Assembly: GCF_002210345.1 (NCBI RefSeq)
Contig: NZ_MWQI01000002.1
Location: 248,001-312,000, forward strand
Source of the DNA: Fibrobacter sp. UWB4
GTDB taxonomy: Bacteria > Fibrobacterota > Fibrobacteria > Fibrobacterales > Fibrobacteraceae
DNA: 64,000 nucleotides
Direction of reading: 5' to 3'
Positions 7,175 through 49,771 of the stretch are shown one piece after another. Both the position numbers and the translations under genes were made by a program. The notes under the pieces are model-generated. The model had not been told where the DNA came from. It did not search any database and saw nothing but the letters and a program-made list of their open reading frames with translations. Position 1 is the first letter of the stretch, and every line of letters starts with the position of its first letter.

Positions 7175-7788
7175 CGCAAAACCTCCCGGAATTCTGGGAC
7201 AATCTCTATGCCGAAGGCAAGGACTACTGGAATTTCAAGAAGGCGACTCCGGCCCTGCTTGAGTTTTTCAAGCACCCCTCCTGCCCCGCAACCGGCTCTG
7301 TGCTGATTCCAGGCGCCGGGTTCGGCTATGATGCCGAGGCATGGGCTTTGCGTGGACATGATGTTTTGGCAGTCGACTTTGCTCCGACCGCCGTTGATGA
7401 ACTGGACCACTTGAGCCGCAAGCACAAGAACTTGCGCTCCCTCGACCTCGACTTGTTCACCCTTTCTCCGAAGGATGCCAAGCGCGGTGGCCAGCAGTTC
7501 GATATCATTTATGACTACGGCACGTTCTCGGCAATCCATCCGGGCCGCCGCGACGAATTCTTCGAAGTCTGCTACAAGATGATGAAGGACGACGGCGTGT
7601 TCATCTGCCTCATGTACCCGCTCATGAACGGCAAGACCATGCAGGGTCCTCCGCACTGCATGAGCGAAGGCGAACTCTTGGCTCGTCTGGACGGCGTGTT
7701 TGACATTGTCGAACGCATCAAGCCCACGAACAGCATTCCGGGCCGCGAAGGCAAGGAAGAATTCTGGCTCCTGAAGAAATGCCTGTAA
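7168..7788 (+). CDS. TPMT-like class I SAM-dependent methyltransferase
   Basis: A 206-residue protein resembling the thiopurine S-methyltransferase family: an N-terminal FWDNLYAEGKDYW helix, SAM motif I VLIPGAGFGYDA (about 46-57), acidic motif II VLAVDFAPTAV and an IIYDYGTFSAI motif IV strand. Such bacterial enzymes methylate sulphur, selenium, tellurium or halide nucleophiles; the substrate here is unknown. The start overlaps rlmN by 7 bp, suggesting translational coupling, though the functional link is unclear. A GC hairpin with a T run follows 60-100 bp downstream. Confidence 0.82.
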   Translation: MLTQNLPEFWDNLYAEGKDYWNFKKATPALLEFFKHPSCPATGSVLIPGAGFGYDAEAWALRGHDVLAVDFAPTAVDELDHLSRKHKNLRSLDLDLFTLSPKDAKRGGQQFDIIYDYGTFSAIHPGRRDEFFEVCYKMMKDDGVFICLMYPLMNGKTMQGPPHCMSEGELLARLDGVFDIVERIKPTNSIPGREGKEEFWLLKKCL

Positions 7789-7796
7789 TGCCTTTG

Positions 7797-7824
7797 GTCA
7801 TTGGTCAATGGTCATCAGTCATTA
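7797..7824. repeat. Heptad repeat array, GTCATTA type (four units)
   Basis: Four tandem 7-mers (GTCATTG, GTCAATG, GTCATCA, GTCATTA) begin 8 bp after the methyltransferase stop. An almost identical array of four lies at 35508-35535. Confidence 0.85.
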
Positions 7825-7851
7825 GAATTTGAGTTCGTTGCGACTTTAGCT

Positions 7852-7889
7852 GTCATGCCCGCCTCCGAGCGGGCATCTCTTTTTTATAG
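7852..7889 (+). terminator. Palindromic repeat (GTCATGCCCGC type) followed by a T run
   Basis: GCCCGC-TCCGA-GCGGGC hairpin followed by ATCTCTTTTTT. It can terminate transcription of the rlmN-methyltransferase pair. Its arms (GTCATGCCCGC and GCGGGCATCTC) are the same as in the palindromes at 15043, 37563, 55667 and 55710, so this is also a member of a dispersed repeat family. Confidence 0.7.
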
Positions 7890-7977
7890 ACTTGAGGCTT
7901 GTAAAAAAAGCGCGAAAGACTCCACAGGCGCACCATTTTTTTGTATTTTTAGCCCAGTTTTTTATAAGGATTTTACT

Positions 7978-8475
7978 ATGGCTAACGATTTATGCCCGTG
8001 CGGTTCTGGCAAGGCCTACTGCGACTGCTGCGAACCGATTATTAAGAAGACCGCCCTCGCCCCGTCCCCGGAAGCCCTTATGCGCTCCCGCTACACTGCT
8101 TATGCCAAGCACGAAATTGCATGGCTCAAGGATTCCCTCGAAGCCACCCAGCGTGACGACTTTGATGAACCGAGCGTAGAAGCCTGGAGCCGTCAGTCCG
8201 AATGGCTCGGCATCGAAATCAAGCAGACCAAGACCGAAGAAGAAAAGAACATCGGCTGGGTCGAATTTGTCGCCCGCTTCAAGCAGGGCAACATCACTCG
8301 CAACCACCACGAACTTGGCGAATTCCACAAGGTCGGCGGTGCTTGGTACTTCTATGACGGTCGTGCCGTGAAGCAGGAAACTGTCCGCCACGAAGGTCCG
8401 GTTGTCGGCCGTAACGACCCGTGCCCGTGCGGTTCTGGCAAGAAGTACAAGAAGTGCTGCGGCGCTAACAAGTAA
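7978..8475 (+). CDS. YchJ-like protein with two SEC-C zinc motifs
   Basis: A 165-residue protein of the YchJ/UPF0225 type. Cys-rich SEC-C motifs lie at both ends ([13 protein letters not shown] near residue 6 and [13 protein letters not shown] near 150). Each should bind zinc through a CxCx(8)CC pattern. Between them is the NTF2-like core recognised by [13 protein letters not shown] and the GGAWYFYDG strand. The biochemical role of the family is not established; SEC-C zinc fingers are known from SecA. ATG 7978 was chosen because AAGGA lies just upstream; a reading frame extending back to 7801 runs through repeats and lacks family similarity. The stop codon falls inside the first unit of the heptad array. 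Confidence 0.88.
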
Positions 8476-8610
8476 ACAGTAGGAAGTAGGCAGTAGACGG
8501 TAGACAGTATTAATTAGGCGGCTTTGCCGCGATTATAAAACTTCCTACTTCCGACTTCTAACTTCCTACCAATCACTAATCACAAACCACCAACCACTAA
8601 CCACTATCCA
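8471..8610. repeat. Complete heptad element: 20 units filling the ychJ-argC gap
   Basis: From the stop of the SEC-C gene to the ATG of argC the sequence divides exactly into 20 heptamers. Left arm: AGTAAAC (containing the stop TAA), AGTAGGA, AGTAGGC, AGTAGAC, GGTAGAC, AGTATTA. Centre: ATTAGGC, GGCTTTG, CCGCGAT, TATAAAA, which holds a GGCGGC-TTT-GCCGC hairpin. Right arm: CTTCCTA-type units (CTTCCTA, CTTCCGA, CTTCTAA, CTTCCTA), then CTAACCA-type units ending at base 8610. The two arms are roughly complementary, so the whole can fold back. Confidence 0.9.
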
Positions 8611-9576
8611 ATGTTCAAGATATTCGTAGATGGCGAAGCAGGAACCACTGGCCTGCAAATTTTCGAGAGACTTGCCAAGCGTAACGACCTGGAAATTCTC
8701 AAGATCAATCCAGAACTCCGCAAGGACGTGAACGAACGCCAGAAGATGATCAATGAATCTGACGTGACGTTCCTTTGCCTCCCGGACGCAGCGTCCATGG
8801 AAAGTGCCGCCCTCTGCACGAATCCGAACACGCGCATCATCGACGCCTCCACGGCTCATCGCGTGAACCCGGCTTGGACATACGGTATGCCGGAACTTTC
8901 GGCCGAACAACGCGAAGCGATTTCCAAGAGCAAGCGCATTGCAAACCCCGGTTGCCACGCCTCTGGATTTATCCTCGGCGTCCATCCGCTCGTTGCCTCG
9001 GGAATCCTCCCGAAGAGCGCAAACCTCGCCGCATATAGCATCACCGGTTACTCCGGCGGCGGCAAGAAGCTCATCGCCGAATACGAAGCCGAAGACGCCC
9101 TCAGCCACAAGGCCGGTGAATCGAAGGCCATCATGGCTCCCGCCCCATACGCGCTTGCGCTCGCCCACAAGCACCTCCCCGAAATGAAGAAGTACTGCGG
9201 ACTCGAAAACGTCCCGTTCTTCAATCCGGTGCTTGGCCCCTACTACAAGGGTATGGCCGTGACGGTCGCCATCTTCCCGAACATGCTTTCGAAGGATTTC
9301 GGTCCGCAGGACTTGACCGAAATCCTCGCCAAGCATTACGAAGGTTCGAAGTTCGTGAAGGTCTTGCCGTACGAAGCCGCTCCGGTGCTCTTCAACGGTC
9401 GTTTGGACCCGACTGTTTGCAACGACACGAACAATGCCCGCATCCAGGTTTTCGGCAACGAAAACATCATGCAGGTCACGACGATCATCGACAACCTCGG
9501 CAAGGGTGCTAGCGGCGCCGCTATTCAGAACATGAATATCGCGCTCGGCCTCGACGAAACGATTGGTTTGGTTTAA
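8611..9576 (+). CDS. argC: N-acetyl-gamma-glutamyl-phosphate reductase, type 2
   Basis: A 321-residue ArgC that reduces N-acetylglutamyl-5-phosphate to the semialdehyde with NADPH, the third step of arginine synthesis. The N-terminal dinucleotide motif is DGEAGTTGLQI, and the active-site Cys is in ANPGCHASGF. The length and GEAGTTG start mark the shorter type 2 form rather than the 345-residue type 1. No other arg gene is near. The ATG follows immediately after the last heptad repeat and has no evident Shine-Dalgarno, so translation may rely on an unstructured leader. Confidence 0.95.
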   Translation: MFKIFVDGEAGTTGLQIFERLAKRNDLEILKINPELRKDVNERQKMINESDVTFLCLPDAASMESAALCTNPNTRIIDASTAHRVNPAWTYGMPELSAEQREAISKSKRIANPGCHASGFILGVHPLVASGILPKSANLAAYSITGYSGGGKKLIAEYEAEDALSHKAGESKAIMAPAPYALALAHKHLPEMKKYCGLENVPFFNPVLGPYYKGMAVTVAIFPNMLSKDFGPQDLTEILAKHYEGSKFVKVLPYEAAPVLFNGRLDPTVCNDTNNARIQVFGNENIMQVTTIIDNLGKGASGAAIQNMNIALGLDETIGLV

Positions 9577-18412: not shown

Positions 18413-18441
18413 AGTAGGAAGTAGGAAGTAGACAGTAGGAA
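18413..18441. repeat. Heptad array, AGTAGGA type (four units)
   Basis: AGTAGGA, AGTAGGA, AGTAGAC, AGTAGGA in the leader region of the phosphohexomutase gene. No central hairpin, so a half-element. Confidence 0.85.
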
Positions 18442-18472
18442 GAAACGCCTAAAACAAGGGGTTACAATTCTT

Positions 18473-19503: not shown

Positions 19504-20118
19504 GTCCTTATAATGGTAAGGAACATCCCCTACCCGTTATATTAACACGCTTTTGACGCCTACGGCGTCCGCGGCTGCACTCGGTCATAGAAAAATGCAA
19601 GCATTTTTCTGCGACTCTCGTTTTGCACGCTTTTTTGCCCCATTTGGCCCAAAGCTTTTTTTTGAATTCGAGTAAAATGATTTTAACACAGACAACAAAA
19701 CAATTTCGGACAAAGTTAATTTTTCAGCATCAAGCCGGGGCGTTACGGGACCGGCGTATGAGGCCCCGTTCGAGGGGGTGGAGAGCAACGAAGTGCGAAC
19801 CAGGGGGACACACCCCCACCAACCTTAACTAGATTGCCGCGTCGCTACGCTCCTCGCAATGACGTTTTTTCAAGCTACAGCTCTTGATTTACAAGCCTTT
19901 AATTTCGCCACATTTTTCTCTCATATCTAGTCTTTGCTCGTGGCAAGCTCCGCGATATTCTTCACATTTTCACATGCAAAATTCCAATAACTAATAACCC
20001 AAATCTATCGGTAATAAAATTATTTGATGATGCAAATTCATTACTTTTGCAAAACGGTGCAATTCCAATAACAATTTACTGCCTACGGCCTACTGTCTAC
20101 TGCCTACTTTATTATATT
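19504..20118. other. 615-bp non-coding region made largely of repeats
   Basis: I see no gene here. In order it holds: a copy of the variable-stem hairpin repeat (19554-19621, hairpin 19589-19610); an AT-rich stretch; a GC-rich segment with GGGGGTG...CACCCCC arms (19774-19817); ATTGCCGCG...CGCAATGACG (19832-19863), related to the GTCATTGC family; an AT-rich stretch containing AATTCCAATAAC twice (about 19981 and 20061); and the heptad array leading into dapA. Short open frames across it have neither ribosome sites nor family similarity. Confidence 0.7.
19554..19621. repeat. Repeat with variable-stem hairpin, copy 2
   Basis: GACGCCTACGGCGTCC...GGCTGCACTCGGTCAT, then hairpin AGAAAAATG-CAAG-CATTTTTCT (19589-19610), then GCGACTCTCG. 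The outer parts match 15140-15215, and the stem sequence differs while remaining fully paired. Confidence 0.65.
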
Positions 20119-30503: not shown

Positions 30504-31961
30504 ATGAGTGACGCCCTCGAAAAACGCATCAAGAAACACATCATCGGAAAGCCCCATCGCTTTTTAGCCATTTCTCCGCTTGGCTTTGAACAAACGCTTG
30601 CGAGAGAACTTGATTGCATTTTAGGAGAAAGCGCAACAGAACCGTCGCACGTCACTGGAGACGGCAAAGTCGAGTTCACCACAAAACTGACTGAAGCGTG
30701 GAAAGCAGTCGCCGTAAGCCGCATCGCAAACCGCGTACTCATGGAAGTCGCAAGCTTCAAAGCCGAGAACTTCCGCGAACTCGAAAAGAAAGCAAGCGAA
30801 ATCCCGTGGGAACTTTATTTAGACGCCAACGTCATCCCGAGCCGCGCGAGGGATCCAGTAAAGTTCACCAACGCATTAAACATTCACGTCACTTGCAAGC
30901 ATTCCCGTCTGTACCACAGCGACGCCATCGCCGAACGTTTGTATAAAATAATAGAAGAAGGGGTAAGTGTCCCCCTCGCTCCTGCCGACACGGCATCCGC
31001 TACCCCCTCTGCGGGGACACCCCGCAACGCCCCGATGCAAAACGAGAATCGCGGCACACCTCAAAATCTTTACGTCAACTTCCTAGACGACCGCTGCACT
31101 ATCTGGCTAGACCTCGCCGGAGAAGAACTCTACAAGCGCGGCTTTGAACGTTTCGTGAACGATGCCCCGCTCAAAGAAACCATCGCCTCTGCGATGATAT
31201 TCGAAGCATTCCACTTCCTACCGTCTACTTCCTGCTGTCTACTAGATTTAATGTCCGGCAGCGGCACGTTCAGCCTCGAATCCGCCTGCATTGCAAACAA
31301 AATCATTCCCGGCACGTGCCGCGATTTTGCACTCAAGCACCAGCCCGCCTTCAAAGAAGCCACCTGGAATTTTATAACGCGAAGCGTCACCCTGAACGAA
31401 GTGAAATGCAACACATCTACGTTCGTCACCCTGAGTGAAACGAAGGGTCCAGTAAAGTCTTGCAACACATTCGCGACAATCGCAAAAATCATCACGAGCG
31501 ATATTTCCGAACGCGCGGTAAGCATCATCAAGCACAACATCGAATGTAGCCCGCTCGCACAAATCGCGCCGAACGAAAACACGCCCACAATTTCTCCGCA
31601 ACTCCGCGACTTTTTCAGCTACACCGCCAAAGAAATTGTAGACGCCTGCGACGACGCCTCGCCCGTTCTCGTGCTGAACCCACCCTACGGCAAACGCCTT
31701 GATTTCGACGCGCCCAAGCTTTACACGCAAATCGGCAAAAAGCTAACAGAACTCGCCCGCGACTTACGCAATTTGGGCAAATCACTCACAGTCGCCATCC
31801 TCGCTCCGAAAGACGACACCCGCGATGGCGCCAAGTACACCTGCACCGCAAACCTTTTGCGCGAATGCCCCGCCCTTTCAACAGAGATCAACCCAACCGC
31901 CAAAGTCGTCCAAACAAGCCACGGCGGCTTTAGCCTCAACGCCTTCTTTGCAACAATCTAG
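30504..31961 (+). CDS. RlmL-like THUMP/UPF0020 RNA methyltransferase carrying in-frame repeats
   Basis: A 485-residue class I SAM-dependent methyltransferase of the RlmL/UPF0020 type, which makes m2G in 23S rRNA. An N-terminal ferredoxin-like/THUMP part (15-185) precedes the catalytic domain, with SAM motif I LLDLMSGSGTFSLES and motif IV NPPYGKRLDF. The gene is longer than its core needs because it carries in-frame pieces of intergenic repeats: a GGATCCAGTAAAG repeat (30831-30863), a GTGTCCCC...GGGGACAC inverted repeat (30968-31021), heptads (31214-31248) and two GTCACCCTGA repeats (31385-31470). No stop or frameshift results and catalytic motifs remain, so it may still be active. ATG 30504 is chosen. 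Confidence 0.85.
   Translation: MSDALEKRIKKHIIGKPHRFLAISPLGFEQTLARELDCILGESATEPSHVTGDGKVEFTTKLTEAWKAVAVSRIANRVLMEVASFKAENFRELEKKASEIPWELYLDANVIPSRARDPVKFTNALNIHVTCKHSRLYHSDAIAERLYKIIEEGVSVPLAPADTASATPSAGTPRNAPMQNENRGTPQNLYVNFLDDRCTIWLDLAGEELYKRGFERFVNDAPLKETIASAMIFEAFHFLPSTSCCLLDLMSGSGTFSLESACIANKIIPGTCRDFALKHQPAFKEATWNFITRSVTLNEVKCNTSTFVTLSETKGPVKSCNTFATIAKIITSDISERAVSIIKHNIECSPLAQIAPNENTPTISPQLRDFFSYTAKEIVDACDDASPVLVLNPPYGKRLDFDAPKLYTQIGKKLTELARDLRNLGKSLTVAILAPKDDTRDGAKYTCTANLLRECPALSTEINPTAKVVQTSHGGFSLNAFFATI
30831..30863. repeat. Intragenic dispersed repeat (GTCATCCCGAGC...GGATCCAGTAAAG)
   Basis: In-frame copy encoding VIPSRARDPVK. Same family as 9584-9672. Confidence 0.75.
30968..31021. 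repeat. Intragenic inverted repeat (GTGTCCCC...GGGGACAC)
   Basis: Eight-base perfect arms around a 38-bp centre, in frame, encoding a Pro/Ala/Thr/Ser-rich loop (SVPLAPADTASATPSAG). GTGTCCCCCT also occurs (reverse strand) at about 19802. Confidence 0.65.
31214..31248. repeat. Intragenic heptad array (five units)
   Basis: CTTCCTA, CCGTCTA, CTTCCTG, CTGTCTA, CTAGATT. They encode FLPSTSCCLLD, directly before the SAM-binding motif I. Confidence 0.85.
31385..31470. repeat. Intragenic tandem copies of the GTCACCCTGA repeat
   Basis: Two copies (CGTCACCCTGAACGAAG and CGTCACCCTGAGTGAAACG), each followed by TGCAACACAT (31407-31416 and 31461-31470). The second includes GGGTCCAGTAAAGTC. In frame, encoding VTLNEVK and VTLSETKGPVK. 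Confidence 0.75.
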
Positions 31962-35507: not shown

Positions 35508-35535
35508 GTCAATAGTCATTAGTCAATAGTCATTG
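35508..35535. repeat. Heptad repeat array, GTCATTA type (four units)
   Basis: GTCAATA, GTCATTA, GTCAATA, GTCATTG; the counterpart of 7797-7824. Confidence 0.85.
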
Positions 35536-35585
35536 GCCAAGTGCACACCGCCCGCCATGCAGGAGTTCTCTAGTTTAACCAAAAA

Positions 35586-38343: not shown

Positions 38344-40116
38344 ATGGAGTCTTTGGAATTCACATCCCTGCCGTCCATGTTCTTTGCAAACTGCGACAGG
38401 GCCGCTTTTAAAGGATGGTATCACCGTAAAAACGGTGAGTGGATTCACTATTCCAAAGGAACTCTCAAGCAAAACGTCAAGGCTCTCGCACTTGCCTTAA
38501 ATTCACTCGGTTTAAAAGAAAAAGAAAGCGTCGGCATCATCGCCCCAAGTTCTCCAAACTGGATTATCGCAGACATAGCCATACAAATAAATCACGCTCA
38601 CGTCGTTCCGCTTTTTCCAAACATTTCTTCTGAGAACTTTGAATACCAAAGTCACGATGCCAATATCAAGATCCTAATTATCAATTCCTTTGAAGAACTT
38701 GAAGAGCCTCTTTACGATTTGCTCCCGTCTTTTTCAAAAATCATCTGCATCGACAACGATTCGTTCCTCCCAGCCAATGGAATTTATTGGGAAGACCTGC
38801 TAAAAAAAGGATCCAAACTTCTTGCAGACAAGAACCAATCGGAATGGATCAAAAAGAATATTAAATCCATTCAGCCAGACGATATTTTTAGCATCATTTA
38901 TACAAGCGGTTCTACAGGTCGGCCCAAAGGTGTGGAACTTACACACAGGAACATGTTAGTACAAATTCAAAACATCGCCCCGATGTTCAAGTTTGATACA
39001 AAAAAAGATTCATGCCTCACAATCCTCCCGGTCGCTCACGTTCTCGAGCGCATGGCCGTCTATTTTTACACGCTCAGCGGCGTCACCGTTTACTTTGGCG
39101 ACAATCCCAAGAACCTTTCGCACATCTTGCGTGAAGTTCGACCGACCATCATGATCGTGGTCCCGCGCATTCTCGAGCGCCTTTACGAGAGCATGACAAC
39201 AGCAACAGATCGCGCCAAGGGAATCAAAAGATTCCTAATAAAACACGCTATCAAGATTGCAAAAATCAAAGAACCCAATAAGCGCTTCGATCCTCTTTAT
39301 TGGCTATTCAATAAGCTCGTCTATAAGAAAATGCGTGAAGCCGTCGGAGGCAACTTCCGCATGATTATTTCGGGTAGCAGTTCTCTCAACAAATCTATTT
39401 TACGATTCCTTTTGAACATCGGGCTACCCGTTTTTGAAGGCTATGGCATGACGGAATGTTCGCCCGTCGTTTCTGCAAACTGCCCAAAAGCGATAAAGCC
39501 CGGTTCAATAGGCAAGCCTCTGCCCCATCTCGAAGTCCGAATCGGGAAATGCAACGAAATCCAAGTCCGTGGTGAAAGCGTTTTTAAAGGATACCACAAT
39601 CGCCCCGACTTGAACGCCAACATATTCACAGAAGACGGTTTTTACCATTCTGGAGACCAAGGCTATTTCGACGATGACGGATTCCTTTATTTTACAGGTC
39701 GCATCAAAGAACTCCTCAAGACAAGTACCGGCAAATACGTTAGCCCCAACCCCATCGAACTCGAAATCATCCGCCACCCGCTTGTAGAACAGGCGCTCGT
39801 CATCGCAAATGACCGTAAGTTCGCCTCGGCCATTATCTGGCTGAACCCTGTAGGCGCCCGCCGCATGCTCAAGCCGCAAAACGAAGATTACGATGTAGAA
39901 AATGCGCTAAAGTCACCACTTGTCCGCGATGCCATCAATCGCCACATCGAACATGTCAACGAAAAGTTGAATCATTGGGAACAAATTCGCAAGTGGACTC
40001 TGGTCGGTGACGAACTCACAATTGAATCGGGTCTCTTGACCCCCACATTAAAAATTCGGCGCACCGTTGCTGAAAAACGATACGCCGAACAAATTGAAAA
40101 GATGTATCAACAGTAA
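38344..40116 (+). CDS. Long-chain acyl-CoA synthetase (AMP-forming)
   Basis: A 590-residue ANL-superfamily ligase that activates fatty acids with ATP and CoA. Motifs: P-loop-like YTSGSTGRPKGVELTH, A5 YGMTECSPVVSAN, A7 SGDQGYFDDDGFLYFTGR and the C-terminal KELLKTSTGKYVSP region; the pattern is that of eukaryote-like long-chain ligases (FAA/FadD15 type). Role: recycling or incorporating exogenous or volatile fatty acids into lipid, by inference. ATG 38344 starts the family-like MESLEFTSLPSMFF; the frame open back to 38125 crosses a GC inverted repeat. Its stop codon TAA lies inside the first heptad of the element at 40112. Confidence 0.9.
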   Translation: MESLEFTSLPSMFFANCDRAAFKGWYHRKNGEWIHYSKGTLKQNVKALALALNSLGLKEKESVGIIAPSSPNWIIADIAIQINHAHVVPLFPNISSENFEYQSHDANIKILIINSFEELEEPLYDLLPSFSKIICIDNDSFLPANGIYWEDLLKKGSKLLADKNQSEWIKKNIKSIQPDDIFSIIYTSGSTGRPKGVELTHRNMLVQIQNIAPMFKFDTKKDSCLTILPVAHVLERMAVYFYTLSGVTVYFGDNPKNLSHILREVRPTIMIVVPRILERLYESMTTATDRAKGIKRFLIKHAIKIAKIKEPNKRFDPLYWLFNKLVYKKMREAVGGNFRMIISGSSSLNKSILRFLLNIGLPVFEGYGMTECSPVVSANCPKAIKPGSIGKPLPHLEVRIGKCNEIQVRGESVFKGYHNRPDLNANIFTEDGFYHSGDQGYFDDDGFLYFTGRIKELLKTSTGKYVSPNPIELEIIRHPLVEQALVIANDRKFASAIIWLNPVGARRMLKPQNEDYDVENALKSPLVRDAINRHIEHVNEKLNHWEQIRKWTLVGDELTIESGLLTPTLKIRRTVAEKRYAEQIEKMYQQ

Positions 40117-40207
40117 GAAGTTAGCAGTAGGAAGTCGGAAGTTAAATAATCGCAGCGAAGCTGCCTAACTTAACAACTTCCTACCGTCTACTGTCTACTG
40201 CCTACTA
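40112..40207. repeat. Complete heptad element between convergent genes
   Basis: Left arm AGTAAGA (holds the acyl-CoA synthetase stop), AGTTAGC, AGTAGGA, AGTCGGA, AGTTAAA; centre TAATCGCAGCGAAGCTGCC; right arm in CTTCCTA, CCGTCTA, CTGTCTA, CTGCCTA phase, ending in the serA stop codon (TAG on the minus strand). Both convergent genes thus end inside the element. The centre matches ATAATCGCGGC...GCCGCC of the other two complete copies in reverse orientation. Confidence 0.88.
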
Positions 40208-41371
40208 GAAGTGGATCACGCGGACCTTGATGACCTTGTCGAGCTTGGAGAGCTTTTCGACGATGGAATCATCGACCTTGCTTTCGACGTCAACGAGGTT
40301 GTAACCGATCTTGCCATTGCTCTTGTTGCTGAAAGAAGCAATGTTGATGCCTTCTGCACCGAACACCTTCGTGATTTCAGAAATCATGTTCGGAACGTCC
40401 TGGTTGATCACGACAACGCGGCTCTTGATGCCAGCATGCGGATGATCGACGAGAGCCGGGAAGTTCACGGAATTGCGGACGCAACCGTATTCGATGTAGT
40501 CCTTCAATTCTTCAACAGCCATCACTGCGCAGTTTTCTTCGGCTTCTTCAGTAGAAGCGCCGAGGTGCGGGAAGCAAGTGACCTTGTCGTTCTTGATGAG
40601 TTCTGCAGTCGGGAAGTCGCAGAGGTAACCCTGGAGGGAACCAGAAGCGAGCATTTCGTTCACCGGATCCATTTCAACAATGCCACCACGAGCAAAGTTC
40701 ATGATGTAGGAACCCTTGAACTGAGCGAGGTTCTTGCGGTTGAGGAGGTTTTCGGTAACGCCCTTGATGAACGGAACGTGGACCGTGAGGAAGTCAGAAT
40801 TTGCAATCACGGTGTCGAGGTCAGCAATTTCGACCTTGTTAGAAAGCTCATGCATGTTGTTTGCGTTCGGATACGGTTCGTAAGCGATCACGCGCATGTT
40901 CTTCCAACGGGCATAGTTAGCAACGAGCACACCGATCTTGCCAAGGCCAACAACACCGAGAGTCTTGCCGGCAAGTTCCATACCAGCAAACTTCTTCTTG
41001 CCGCTTTCGACAGTCTTTGCGAGGTCCGGATCGTTCACGTCGAGACCCTTGACCCAAGCAGCAGCCTTGTCAGCGTTACGGACAGCCATGCCGAGCACGG
41101 TCATCACGAGTTCAGCAACAGCGTTTGCGTTTGCACCCGGAGTATTGAACACGCAGATGCCCTTTGCAGAAGCCTTGTCAATCGTGATGTTATTCACGCC
41201 AGCACCGGCGCGAGCGACAGCCAAAAGGCCATTGAAGTTATCCGTATCGACCTGGGCAGAACGCACCAAGATAGCATCCGGGTTTTCGATAGCATCGGAA
41301 ACCTGGTAGAACGGGCCAAACAAGCCCAAGCCTTTCTTGGAAATGTTGTTCATTGTCTTAATAGTTGCCAT
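40205..41371 (-). CDS. serA: D-3-phosphoglycerate dehydrogenase
   Basis: A 388-residue SerA, the first enzyme of serine synthesis (3-phosphoglycerate to phosphohydroxypyruvate, NAD-dependent). NAD-binding GVVGLGKIGVLVA, the substrate/catalytic Arg region MNFARGGIVE and the catalytic His in PHLGASTEEAEENC are present. An ACT regulatory domain closes the protein (about 318-388: VVVINQDVPNMISEITKVFG), suggesting serine feedback. Of the size class of the shorter SerA forms. AAAGGA precedes the ATG. It is flanked on both sides by complete heptad elements; the downstream one contains its stop codon and the upstream one ends at its ATG. Confidence 0.94.
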   Translation of the reverse strand: MATIKTMNNISKKGLGLFGPFYQVSDAIENPDAILVRSAQVDTDNFNGLLAVARAGAGVNNITIDKASAKGICVFNTPGANANAVAELVMTVLGMAVRNADKAAAWVKGLDVNDPDLAKTVESGKKKFAGMELAGKTLGVVGLGKIGVLVANYARWKNMRVIAYEPYPNANNMHELSNKVEIADLDTVIANSDFLTVHVPFIKGVTENLLNRKNLAQFKGSYIMNFARGGIVEMDPVNEMLASGSLQGYLCDFPTAELIKNDKVTCFPHLGASTEEAEENCAVMAVEELKDYIEYGCVRNSVNFPALVDHPHAGIKSRVVVINQDVPNMISEITKVFGAEGINIASFSNKSNGKIGYNLVDVESKVDDSIVEKLSKLDKVIKVRVIHF

Positions 41372-41490
41372 TTTTCATTCCTTTGTTTAAGTTAAAAAGT
41401 AACAAGTAGGAAGTTAGAAGTAGGAAGTTGAATAATCGCGGCTTCGCCGCCAAATTTATTCTGTCTACTTCCTACTGTCTACCGTCTACT
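41372..41490. repeat. Complete heptad element: 17 units between ispG and serA
   Basis: Minus strand, beginning three bases after the ispG stop: AGTAGAC, GGTAGAC, AGTAGGA, AGTAGAC, AGAATAA, ATTTGGC, GGCGAAG, CCGCGAT, TATTCAA, CTTCCTA, CTTCTAA, CTTCCTA, CTTGTTA, CTTTTTA, ACTTAAA, CAAAGGA, ATGAAAA, then the serA ATG. That is 119 bp, exactly 17 heptads; the serA ribosome site (AAAGGA) is itself within one unit. The centre aligns unit by unit with that of 8471-8610. Confidence 0.9.
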
Positions 41491-41493
41491 AAA

Positions 41494-43233
41494 TCAAGGT
41501 TCCTGCCAGCGACCACGTTCCTTGATGAGGTTCACCAATTCTTCGATGGCGTCCTCTTCGGGGATGTTCTTCTTCACTGCAGTCTTGCCTTCGAAAAGCG
41601 TAATACGGCCAGGGCCACCGCCCACATAGCCGAAGTCGGCATCAGCCATTTCACCAGGGCCATTCACGATGCACCCCATGATGCCAATGGAAATGTCTTG
41701 CAAATGTCCAAAGCGAGCCTTGATCTTGCCCATCACCTGCTGGATGTCGTAAAGCGTACGACCGCAGCTCGGACAGCTGATAAAGTTCGTCTTGCTACGG
41801 CGACAATAAGCGGCCTGCAACATATCGAATGCGAGAATCACAGAATCCTTCGGGTTCTTGTAACCGTCAATCACGACAGCATCGCCAAGGCCATCCGTCA
41901 CGAGGCTTCCGATATCGGCAGATACACGAAGCGTATCCTTTTCACTATCTGTAATCTTTGCATAAAGGAGAATCGGATCCTTGCGGTTTGCGGCATACAA
42001 AGCAGAAGCGAGAGCGCGTACGCCCATCACCATTTCAGGCCCCGTATAGCAGAAGAGCGATCCTTCCGGCACGGCATTCGGATTTGCGGCAAAGCCTGCG
42101 ATATCCATCGGATCCTTGAATTCCACGACCGGCTTTGCATCGAGACCCGGCAAAGCAAATTCAGCATTGCGGCGTTCGCCCGTGAGGCTCATGGCATCGG
42201 CCTTCATGCCGACGCGCACCGGTTCCGAACCGCCAATCTTTACGCCTGCAAGCGTCACCGGGATTGTTTCCCTGCGTTCGTAGTGGTACGGATCCTTTTC
42301 CAAAACCGGCACCGCAAACTTCGGAGCATCAGCCTTGAGTTCGCAAGCCTTGATGAGTTCCTGCGCCACCGGGACTTCCGCCACCGGATCTTCAGTCAAG
42401 GACACGCGAATCGTATCGGCAAGGCCATCGAGTAAAAGCGCACCGATGCCAGCCGCAGACTTCAAACGTCCGTCGGAACCAGCACCCGCTTCCGTCACGC
42501 CAACATGGAACGGATACGGCTTGAAGTGTTCCTGCTTCAGGCGAGCAGCAAGCAAGCGGTAAGCAGAAATGGCCACACGCGGATTGCTCGACTTGAGGCT
42601 CAAGACCACCTGGTCAAAATGTTCGGCTTCGCAAACAGCCAAATATTCGATGGCGCTTTCCACCATGCCTTCGACGGTGTCGCCATAGCGATAAATCATA
42701 CGGGCGCTCAAGGAACCGTGGTTCACGCCAATGCGGATAGCACGGCCAAGGCGCTTCGCTTCTTGCACAAACGGAGTGAAGGCTTCGGCAACTTTTTCCT
42801 TGCCTTCTTCAAAGGACTTGTCCGTCTGCTGGTCAAGCGTCAAAATACCAGTATCTACAAAGTTACCCGGGTTGATGCGAACCTTTTCCACCCACTTGAG
42901 CGCTTCGAAAGCTGCCTTCGGCTGGAAGTGGATATCGGCAGAAACAGGAACCGTGCAACCGGCAGCGCGCACACGCTTCATGACTTCTTCAAGTCCAGCG
43001 GCATCGGCGAACGTAGGCGCCGTAATACGCACCAGACCGCAACCGACCTTGGCAAGCGCAAGCGTTTCGGCCACAGTCTTTTCGACGTCCTTCGGCTTGG
43101 TCGTCGTCATGGATTGAACTAAAATGGGGGCATTGCCCCCTATCAAAGCGTCGCCTACGCGAACCTGAACAGTTTCCCTGCGAACCGCCTTAAAACGGTC
43201 ATCAACATACGGAAGTGTAGTAAAATCTAGCAT
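41494..43233 (-). CDS. ispG: 4-hydroxy-3-methylbut-2-enyl diphosphate synthase, three-domain form
   Basis: A 579-residue IspG (GcpE), the penultimate enzyme of the MEP isoprenoid pathway. It reductively opens methylerythritol cyclodiphosphate with a 4Fe-4S cluster. The TIM-barrel part starts with VRVGDALIGGNAPILVQSMTT. The cluster domain has ISCPSCGRTLYD and GIMGCIVNGPGEM. At 579 residues it is the longer form with an extra central domain (roughly 290-460), known from plants, Chlamydia and Bacteroidota, in contrast to the 370-residue E. coli form. Its ATG lies in the 3' arm of an 11-bp inverted repeat. It follows the HD-GYP pair by 60 bp on the same strand. Confidence 0.95.
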   Translation of the reverse strand: MLDFTTLPYVDDRFKAVRRETVQVRVGDALIGGNAPILVQSMTTTKPKDVEKTVAETLALAKVGCGLVRITAPTFADAAGLEEVMKRVRAAGCTVPVSADIHFQPKAAFEALKWVEKVRINPGNFVDTGILTLDQQTDKSFEEGKEKVAEAFTPFVQEAKRLGRAIRIGVNHGSLSARMIYRYGDTVEGMVESAIEYLAVCEAEHFDQVVLSLKSSNPRVAISAYRLLAARLKQEHFKPYPFHVGVTEAGAGSDGRLKSAAGIGALLLDGLADTIRVSLTEDPVAEVPVAQELIKACELKADAPKFAVPVLEKDPYHYERRETIPVTLAGVKIGGSEPVRVGMKADAMSLTGERRNAEFALPGLDAKPVVEFKDPMDIAGFAANPNAVPEGSLFCYTGPEMVMGVRALASALYAANRKDPILLYAKITDSEKDTLRVSADIGSLVTDGLGDAVVIDGYKNPKDSVILAFDMLQAAYCRRSKTNFISCPSCGRTLYDIQQVMGKIKARFGHLQDISIGIMGCIVNGPGEMADADFGYVGGGPGRITLFEGKTAVKKNIPEEDAIEELVNLIKERGRWQEP

Positions 43234-49560: not shown

Positions 49561-49597
49561 GCAAAAATGCAATTTGGACTCATATATAGTAAAATTA

Positions 49598-49625
49598 GTT
49601 ACTAGTTACTAGTTAGTAGTTACTA
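49598..49625. repeat. Heptad repeat array, GTTACTA type (four units)
   Basis: GTTACTA, GTTACTA, GTTAGTA, GTTACTA. Related units occur at 12769 and 28662. Confidence 0.85.
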
Positions 49626-49771
49626 GAGATGCTACGAAAAAGCACCTAAAAAAGGGGGGATGGGCTATGGGGTCGGTCGCCTACGGCTCCCTTTGGGGTA
49701 TGGGCTATGAGCTATACCTCAAAGCGAAGCGTGCTCAAAGCACCGCAGGTGCGTGCTCATACCTCAAAGCC

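Follow-up and report, generated by a model that had tools for sequence, protein, structure and literature searches.

The heptad-bearing ychJ-argC gap of Fibrobacter sp. UWB4 holds one copy of a probably dispersed family of intergenic repeats

Introduction

In the 64,000-nucleotide stretch of Fibrobacter sp. UWB4 DNA analysed here (contig NZ_MWQI01000002.1, positions 248,001 to 312,000; hereafter the window, whose first letter is position 1), the 140 bp between ychJ and argC can be read as 20 steps of seven bases running from the stop codon of one gene to the start codon of the next. A preliminary description took this to be an element fitted exactly between stop and start, with a hairpin kept in register at its centre, and suggested a structural RNA, a product of slippage by 7 bp, or a mobile or templated sequence. 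This raises the question of whether the layout is peculiar to this gap or belongs to a wider class of sequences, and what could have produced it. Throughout, G and L numbers denote genomes and loci.

Results

Heptads in the ychJ-argC gap

The gap is flanked by ychJ (7978-8475; YchJ_M-like and SEC-C domains in Pfam) and argC (8611-9576; semialdehyde dehydrogenase domains, Pfam support for ArgC), and the 20 seven-base steps of 8471-8610 were borne out. Identity between bases seven positions apart was 78/133 (0.59), compared with 0.16-0.40 at every other lag as far as 24, multiples of 7 aside, and the independent program TRF called period-7 arrays at 8471-8509, 8540-8569 and 8574-8610. The open reading frame ends confirmed that the first unit holds the ychJ stop codon (8473-8475) and that the last runs up to the argC ATG. 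The claim that the whole gap consists of heptads held for the outer arrays and failed for about five middle steps (8506-8540), where the hairpin core and its margins lie. Beginning on the left, five TAG-phase units are followed by the core, four CTTCCTA-type units, six CTAACCA-type units and the ATG:

8471..8509, + strand: left arm (TRF period 7, 5.6 copies; lag-7 identity; unit types)
8473..8475, + strand: ychJ stop codon TAA, inside the first unit of the array (open reading frame end at 8475; register test)
8514..8535, - strand: hairpin core TAATCGCGGCAAAGCCGCCTAA (pattern match G000:C2:256514-256535 -; covarying stem; fold)
8540..8569, + strand: right arm of CTTCCTA-type heptads (TRF; fold; duplex test)
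8570..8610, + strand: outer heptads of a second type, CTAATCA, CTAACCA and CTATCCA (TRF 8574-8610; end at the argC ATG)

The left arm (locus L008) reads AGTAAAC, AGTAGGA, AGTAGGC, AGTAGAC, GGTAGAC, with TAG in phase, and is mostly of the TAGACAG/TAGGCAG type; the right arm is complementary to it in type (TAGGAAG on the - strand). Between them the core, GCGGC-TTT-GCCGC at 8518-8530, pairs 8518-8522 with 8526-8530. CTAACCA-type units also occur upstream of argC in several relatives. As RNA, 8471-8610 is more stable than shuffled sequence on both strands (z -4.5 and -2.5). No intrinsic terminator, that is a GC stem followed by a T run, was found in 8471-8610, the single site in the scanned stretch being 7855-7876, and an Rfam scan of 7700-9000 returned one match, far below the gathering score, at 8034-8214, outside the element.

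Seven-base periodicity across the genome and the genus

In 464 kb, made up of the window and 20 sampled stretches, we detected 59 intergenic period-7 arrays, against a mean of 2.3 (range 0-5) in shuffles drawn as first-order Markov samples. The other periods from 4 to 20 gave 0-3 intergenic arrays each, except 14 (39), and period 21 gave 10; an excess at 14 and 21 is expected of multiples of 7. Under a stricter threshold, one period-7 segment lay in coding DNA versus 49 in intergenic DNA. The preliminary description had proposed a comparison with shuffled sequence as a test, which the periodicity survived; of the two codon registers examined below, the one with stop codons survived as well and the one with start codons did not.

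Wider statistics rest on 864 kb, or 24% of the 3.58-Mb genome; besides the window, itself part of contig 2, this sample comprises 39 20-kb stretches of contig 1 and a single one of contig 2. Genes were called there with a simple codon-score script (coding fraction 0.81), and some gaps may hide missed genes; on this basis 108 arrays occupied 86 of 499 gaps. The TAG-heptad pattern TAGnnnnTAGnnnnTAGnnnnTAG matched the own genome at 231 places and its mirror (reversed) pattern at none, and it was found in 117 of the 167 genomes of the phylum and in 78 of the 80 of the genus. Counts per genome were very uneven, from 1 to 578. In some Fibrobacter genomes (e.g. G062, G067, G068 and G090) the mirror control equalled or exceeded the signal; outside the genus the signal was patchy: a few genomes (G019, G150, G162) gave a strong one, and in many it did not rise above the mirror.

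The mirror control itself had 44-115 matches in G067, G088, G137 and G123, which may carry arrays of another unit type. TAACTGA repeats were considered as the source of these matches and rejected, exact triple units being present in only 3 of the 80 Fibrobacter genomes. The common units of the own genome consist of TAG plus four bases with GG at most, and do not have the form of a quadruplex-able GGGANTN unit; some TAGGGGT units occur in G168. In G170, three different units make up a higher-order repeat of 21 bp in longer TAGRMRG arrays (G170:C2:187262-187369 and G170:C3:50291-50342), a sign of multi-unit exchange.

TAG phase and orientation of the arrays

TAG or CTA recurred in a fixed phase in 86 of the 108 arrays (864 kb), compared with 3 of 108 in reversed letters. 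On the + strand the phased triplet was TAG in 44 arrays and CTA in 42; the 22 unclassified arrays include GACGAGA- and GGAATTC-type units as well as some TAG-bearing arrays. In 73 of 86 cases the position in the gap followed the triplet, with TAG arrays on the left and CTA arrays on the right (P=3e-11); that is, 73 phased arrays read away from the flanking gene. This inward rule was seen in gaps with a single array (41/51), at both 3' ends (37/46) and 5' ends (36/40) of genes, and in tandem (50/57) and convergent (17/20) gaps, and was less clear in divergent ones (6/9). Arrays occupied 19 of the 95 convergent gaps and 58 of the 306 tandem ones; divergent gaps were poorer in arrays, with 9 of 98 (P=0.04 vs convergent, P=0.03 vs tandem).

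Register with stop and start codons

Register with the stop codon exceeds chance genome-wide: TAG was in phase with it in 16 of 36 arrays lying within 60 bp of stops (P=1.2e-5), and part of this excess is expected because the array itself can supply in-frame TAGs. The stop was TAG in 20 of those 36 cases, against 177 of 640 genes overall. Register with the start codon, by comparison, was at chance level (36 arrays near starts, phases 6, 5, 5, 8, 2, 4, 6; P=0.67). The register said to be kept across the hairpin looks like chance too, the left-to-right phase differences of 27 arm pairs being spread 3, 4, 7, 5, 2, 4, 2 over the seven classes. Nor did the orthologous ychJ-argC gaps of other species show the start-codon register, (gap+5) mod 7 being 0 in only 5 of 26 array-bearing loci. 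We rejected an exact stop-to-start unit, given the flat start phase and a gap length that is not a multiple of 7 in most relatives.

The conserved C-terminal end of ychJ together with its stop forms the first unit for several different heptad types, and other heptad types in this gap are out of phase (L045, L047, L051, L066, L079). Where an array adjoins the ychJ stop, this stop was TAG at 13 of 26 loci, versus 6 of 30 where none does (P=0.025; 56 of 57 argC loci, L067 having too little upstream DNA; like all our species comparisons, this treats genomes as independent of phylogeny). The ychJ-argC gap holds one copy of a large repeat family, neither unique nor truly stop-to-start; the heptads first described there are real, and their special stop-to-start reading fails.

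Two unlike arms of one family

Among 40 pairs of neighbouring arrays, 21 could be classed on both sides and 18 of these were of one family, against 8.3 expected; all 40 pairs taken together pair better than permuted arms (0/5000). The arms are complementary at the family level. Within the TAGRMRG family of the own genome, every one of the 13 two-arm elements (each arm with two or more exact units, gap 8-120) had unlike arms, one rich in TAGGAAG and the other in TAGACAG/GCAG/ACGG (r=-0.83, P=2e-4), a pattern to be expected if a single asymmetric ancestor was copied. Of seven element pairs taken from other species, 6 had arms differing by at least 0.25 in TAGGAAG fraction, and the permutation test (P=1.0, r=+0.51) was uninformative, since all are in one orientation. 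The TAGGAAG arm lay on the TAATCGC side in the two-arm core copies read (L001-L003, L007-L010); L013 has no right arm and carries mixed units on the TAATCGC side.

In tandem gaps, the TAGACAG arm came first in the transcript in 10 of 12 elements, one of the 12 being from G167. Nine arms split evenly between TAGGAAG and other units, five of them at 3' ends and four at 5' ends, were set aside; the remaining TAGRMRG arms of the own genome were mostly TAGGAAG in 9 cases and mostly not in 18 at 3' ends, compared with 17 and 3 at 5' ends (P=9e-4, the arms of one element not being independent). GGAAG resembles the genome's own Shine-Dalgarno-like motifs, among them AAGGA and AGGAG, which are most frequent when they begin about 11-12 bases ahead of the start codon; GGAAG itself is little enriched there (at most 3/536 per position). 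It is conceivable that arm polarity stems from the avoidance of false starts after stop codons (Shine-Dalgarno avoidance).

Templating of one arm from the other, as the preliminary description had allowed, was not supported for TAGRMRG, where the arms of one locus (nine pairs) pair worse than arms re-paired across loci (-25.6 vs -32.5 kcal/mol, 99.9% of permutations being as good or better). For seven TAGTYAN pairs, own and re-paired arms did not differ. Selection of unit order for pairing was rejected, since in 18 elements pairing improved slightly when the units of one arm were permuted (-25.1 vs -23.9). A weaker mRNA-sense than antisense stem was no rule either (14 of 26 tandem pairs), the sense stem being weaker in 3 of 7 TAGRMRG elements. 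When compared with MITE-like terminal inverted repeats, the arms are inverted by family, yet variable in length and type.

The hairpin core

One sub-family carries a genus-restricted core, TAATCGCGGC-nnn-GCCGCC, with compensatory changes. The core pattern TAATCGCnGCnnnGCnGCCnAA occurs at 12 places in the own genome when matched exactly and at 22 when as many as two mismatches are allowed, versus 3 for the mirror control; it was found in 42 Fibrobacter genomes and one other of the 167, the mirror control giving zero in every genome. At the free core pair we counted G-C 133, A-T 9, T-A 3, G-T 1 and unpaired 4 among the 150 places listed, a count by eye that covers genomes rather than events and repeats orthologs, the three T-A cases being one orthologous locus. 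The 19 own copies gave GC 15, AU 3 and GU 1. At the orthologous site 40112-40206, the pair is A-T in the own genome and G126, and T-A in G076, G098 and G113. For the 19 core copies RNAalifold predicts the five core pairs only, with no conserved arm structure, and in a five-species alignment of 40106-40210 the covariation score rests on one pair, 46 of 500 shuffles scoring at least as high. The foot of the stem lacks the REP tag GTAG/CGTC, the core being flanked by TAAT...CTAA. A structural RNA (or DNA), the first of the original proposals, is possible in so far as the core stem covaries and the arms are complementary by family.

Occupied and empty sites among relatives

The window contains seven further arrays or elements:

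7794..7825, + strand: TTGGTCA/TAGTCAT-family array downstream of a TPMT-like gene (TRF; absent in G167)
18413..18442, + strand: TAGGAAG array at the 5' end of a - strand gene (common to the own genome, G167 and G168)
20077..20108, + strand: CTA-phase array in a divergent gap, ahead of an ATG
35508..35539, + strand: TAGTCAT-family array in a convergent gap (absent in G168)
40112..40206, + strand: sister element between convergent genes, core 40147-40168 (absent in G167)
41399..41496, + strand: sister element between a GcpE-domain gene and a 2-hydroxyacid dehydrogenase gene (absent in G167)
49596..49626, + strand: TAGTTAC array (G167 carries TAGGAAG heptads at the site)

Slippage by 7 bp is visible in the ychJ-argC element of G167 (L023; argC 97% identical), whose left arm is one unit shorter and whose right arm is one unit longer, leaving the total length unchanged; there are substitutions besides. 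G168 (argC 95%) has a TAGTTAC-type element in this gap instead, and at 7794..7825 it has another, TAGAACT-like sequence below the array threshold. Of 35 window gaps comparable in G167, 6 carry arrays here and 3 of these also have an array in G167 (one of another type); the figures for G168 are 21, 4 and 2, with three gaps having an array in G168 only. At 40112-40206 and 41399-41496 the empty sites of G167 are gaps of 2 and 32 bp. The proposal of a mobile or dispersed sequence is supported, arms and core recurring genome-wide and two window copies being absent from G167; no target-site duplication is evident at two occupied/empty pairs inspected by eye.

The element at 41399-41496 shows 0, 3 and 3 differences of 98 in G126, G076 and G098, compared with 48, 60 and 76 of 600 (8-13%) in the flanks (P=0.0009, 0.02 and 0.003), and in G113 the arms are kept and the core is replaced. 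By comparison, 40112-40206 differs about as its flanks do (3, 11, 14 and 12 of 95 vs 43, 83, 124 and 88 of 600). Since 41399-41496 is nearly unchanged and yet missing in G167, and 40112-40206 is not so conserved, turnover is fast at some loci and slow at others. The ychJ-argC gap measures 40 bp or less in 24 of 56 argC loci. The folds of three window elements are stronger than those of shuffles (z about -3.7 to -4.9), and the outer units of 40112-40206 are perfectly complementary in G076. The element at 41404-41490 had no match among plasmids.

Discussion

Relation to known repeats

The portions of Rehm et al. (2015; PMC4692102) considered here describe Xanthomonas GGGAATC heptads as intergenic, with 70 and 75 convergent inverted pairs in two species, as under-represented between divergent genes, and as varying in length and sequence between close species; both there and in Nostoc, heptads that follow a gene favour its coding strand and those that precede one favour the non-coding strand. 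The Fibrobacter repeats are likewise intergenic, of period seven, arranged in close convergent pairs and subject to the same strand bias. They differ in that the Xanthomonas unit is GGGANTN and quadruplex-forming, whereas the Fibrobacter unit is TAG plus four bases, and those portions make no mention of a hairpin core, unlike arms, stop-codon phase or empty sites. They report only a few inverted pairs for the GGGGA(C/T)T heptads of Nostoc 7120, whose position near genes and strand preference the Fibrobacter arrays share. The Fibrobacter elements are a variant of the published Xanthomonas-type convergent heptad pairs, in which the TAG phase, the unlike arms of one family, the covarying core and the occupied/empty sites are apparently new. 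Among the top-ranked papers of a literature search on tandem, heptad or palindromic repeats in Fibrobacter, thin for subscription journals, none describes these elements as far as titles and the starts of abstracts show.

In Nostoc, TTGGTCA is among the STRR heptad units, and small (21-27 nt) hairpin repeats, SDR, are often embedded in heptad arrays. As judged from this description rather than from compared sequences, the Fibrobacter core, a covarying stem of about 22 nt within heptads, may be comparable; unlike the Nostoc arrangement, its arrays are inverted across the core, not direct. An array at the end of a Fischerella plasmid gene matches 32 bp of a Fibrobacter TAGTCAT array at 97% identity, and TAGTCAT-like arrays also lie between genes on Nostoc plasmids; three of six matched plasmid records are Yersinia, inside annotated genes. 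The short match may reflect convergence, the units being so simple.

TAACTGA repeats of Beggiatoaceae, Cyanobacteria and Bacteroidetes are portrayed in the sections of MacGregor (2015; PMC4679880) used here as lying mostly just upstream of start codons, with one unit sequence and one indirect repeat, abundant in a genome and of unknown function. Like them, the Fibrobacter heptads are intergenic and hold stops in one orientation; unlike them, they consist of other units, TAACTGA in triplicate being confined to 3 of 80 Fibrobacter genomes. REP or GTAG palindromes, small dispersed extragenic palindromes according to the relevant part of PMC3733652, invite a similar comparison. The Fibrobacter elements are also small, dispersed and extragenic, and GTAG occurs in TAGRMRG arrays; in contrast to REP, their arms are heptads of several families and the foot of the core is without the tag. 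REP palindromes, which measure 20-40 bp and have GTAG or CGTC at the stem's foot, are tied to the RAYT (Y1) transposase in copy-rich genomes. The Y1 transposase domain PF01797 had no match in the complete, heptad-rich genomes G066 and G076 (407 and 527 TAG-heptad matches) and two in the own genome, where RVT_1 had none; a RAYT or reverse transcriptase as the mover is therefore not supported.

A proposed dispersed family and its rivals

We favour, at a probability of about 0.6, the reading that the 140 bp are one copy of a dispersed, genus-wide intergenic family of inverted repeats with tandem-heptad arms, with or without a small GC core. A few heptad families sit at many gene ends, with arms facing inward and TAG in phase, and relatives show occupied and empty sites, arm changes of 7 bp and different heptad types at one site. 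Copies would reach gene ends by some copying or recombination process, slippage or unequal exchange would afterwards make their arms longer or shorter in steps of 7 bp, and copies would homogenise within a genome. Tolerance could account for the geometry: TAG recurs in all three frames, which may let the arrays persist at gene ends and would therefore allow a 3'-end array to supply or replace the stop codon, and the complementary CTA strand of the common types is open and would thus do no harm ahead of a start codon or even within a gene. Between cistrons, the elements would fold to imperfect hairpins in mRNA. They may be under some selection, as arm type tracks the gene end and core stems covary, with constraint perhaps limited to a minority of loci. 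The near-identity of 41399-41496 in three species is not predicted by neutral turnover and counts against this explanation, as do the failure to identify a mobilising enzyme, the lack of a target-site duplication by eye, the weak inward rule in divergent gaps and the high mirror counts in several genomes.

The strongest rival, which we nevertheless consider unlikely, is a selected RNA element, an intercistronic hairpin that would tune mRNA ends or the expression of the next gene through processing, protection, attenuation or Rho-type termination on the C-rich arm. The covarying core stem, the conservation of 41399-41496 beyond its flanks, the stronger-than-shuffled folds of three window elements, the scarcity of arrays in divergent gaps, and the dependence of arm type on gene end, with the TAGACAG arm 5' in 10 of 12 tandem elements, are all consistent with it. 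Against it, the element can be lost from the argC gap (40 bp or less at 24 of 56 loci) and heptad types are exchanged at one site; the neighbour at 40112-40206 is about as divergent as its flanks, own-locus arms pair no better than cross-locus arms, the ychJ-argC element has no U-tract terminator, and stem strength is inconsistent between sense and antisense (sense weaker in 3 of 7 TAGRMRG elements).

Plain microsatellites, arising by local 7-bp slippage at each gene end without dispersal, are improbable and already disfavoured. They would explain unit gains and losses of exactly 7 bp, and heptads are over-represented among simple sequence repeats in other bacteria, where polymerase slippage has been hypothesised (PMC4692102, in part); however, they do not account for a few families and a common core at unrelated loci in amounts varying by species, nor for inverted pairs of one family with unlike arms. 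Template switching at quasi-palindromes, copying one arm onto the other, would fit the complementarity by family and the perfectly complementary outer units of 40112-40206 in G076, but is very improbable and for TAGRMRG already disfavoured, as nine TAGRMRG pairs pair worse than re-paired arms and seven TAGTYAN pairs no differently.

The roughly 80 Fibrobacter genomes bear on the question of why a unit of exactly seven bases is so common in bacterial intergenic repeats: they allow one to follow arrays as they come and go, gain or lose whole units, and exchange one type for another at a given site. The match of the inward rule to Xanthomonas and Nostoc despite unrelated units suggests a general constraint or mechanism. 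A speculation that we regard as unlikely is that several phyla (Fibrobacter, Xanthomonas, cyanobacteria, Beggiatoaceae) share an unrecognised process that builds inward seven-base arrays at gene ends and lets them move as tiny paired elements, possibly seeded at stop codons; in Fibrobacter it would have yielded asymmetric two-arm elements round a conserved hairpin, some recruited as intercistronic RNA regulators. Through these elements, housekeeping genes come to be separated by stop codons, leaders and hairpins that are strain-specific, and proteins may acquire inserted residues.

Related repeats and heptads inside a gene

A second kind of intergenic element, GGGGTATGGGCTATG... GGTCGCC...GGCTCCC...CTCAAAG..., lies at 49660-49760, has partial heptad character, and recurs in gaps and upstream of argC in other species (L025, L031, L061, L062). 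In several species, the heptad-bearing gap upstream of argC contains a hairpin-rich insert, GGGGAAAGCCTTCCCCTGGCTCGC...CTAGGGGCTCCGCCCC, with small differences (L026, L028, L035, L041, L052, L057, L070, L072, L074). A repeat like GTCATCCTGAGCGAAG...CGAAGGATC recurs in gaps at L136, L142, L147, L149 and L152, and sits between two heptad arms at least in L149 and L152. Heptads of the form CTTCCTACCGTCTACTTCC... also occur in frame at 31213-31243 inside the open reading frame 30504-31961, which encodes a UPF0020/RlmL-like methyltransferase, just before its MSGSGTF motif. By eye, this coding site has CTAACCA-type heptads in G168 and a different insert in G167, and from these sequences heptads of different type seem to have entered one protein loop of the methyltransferase.
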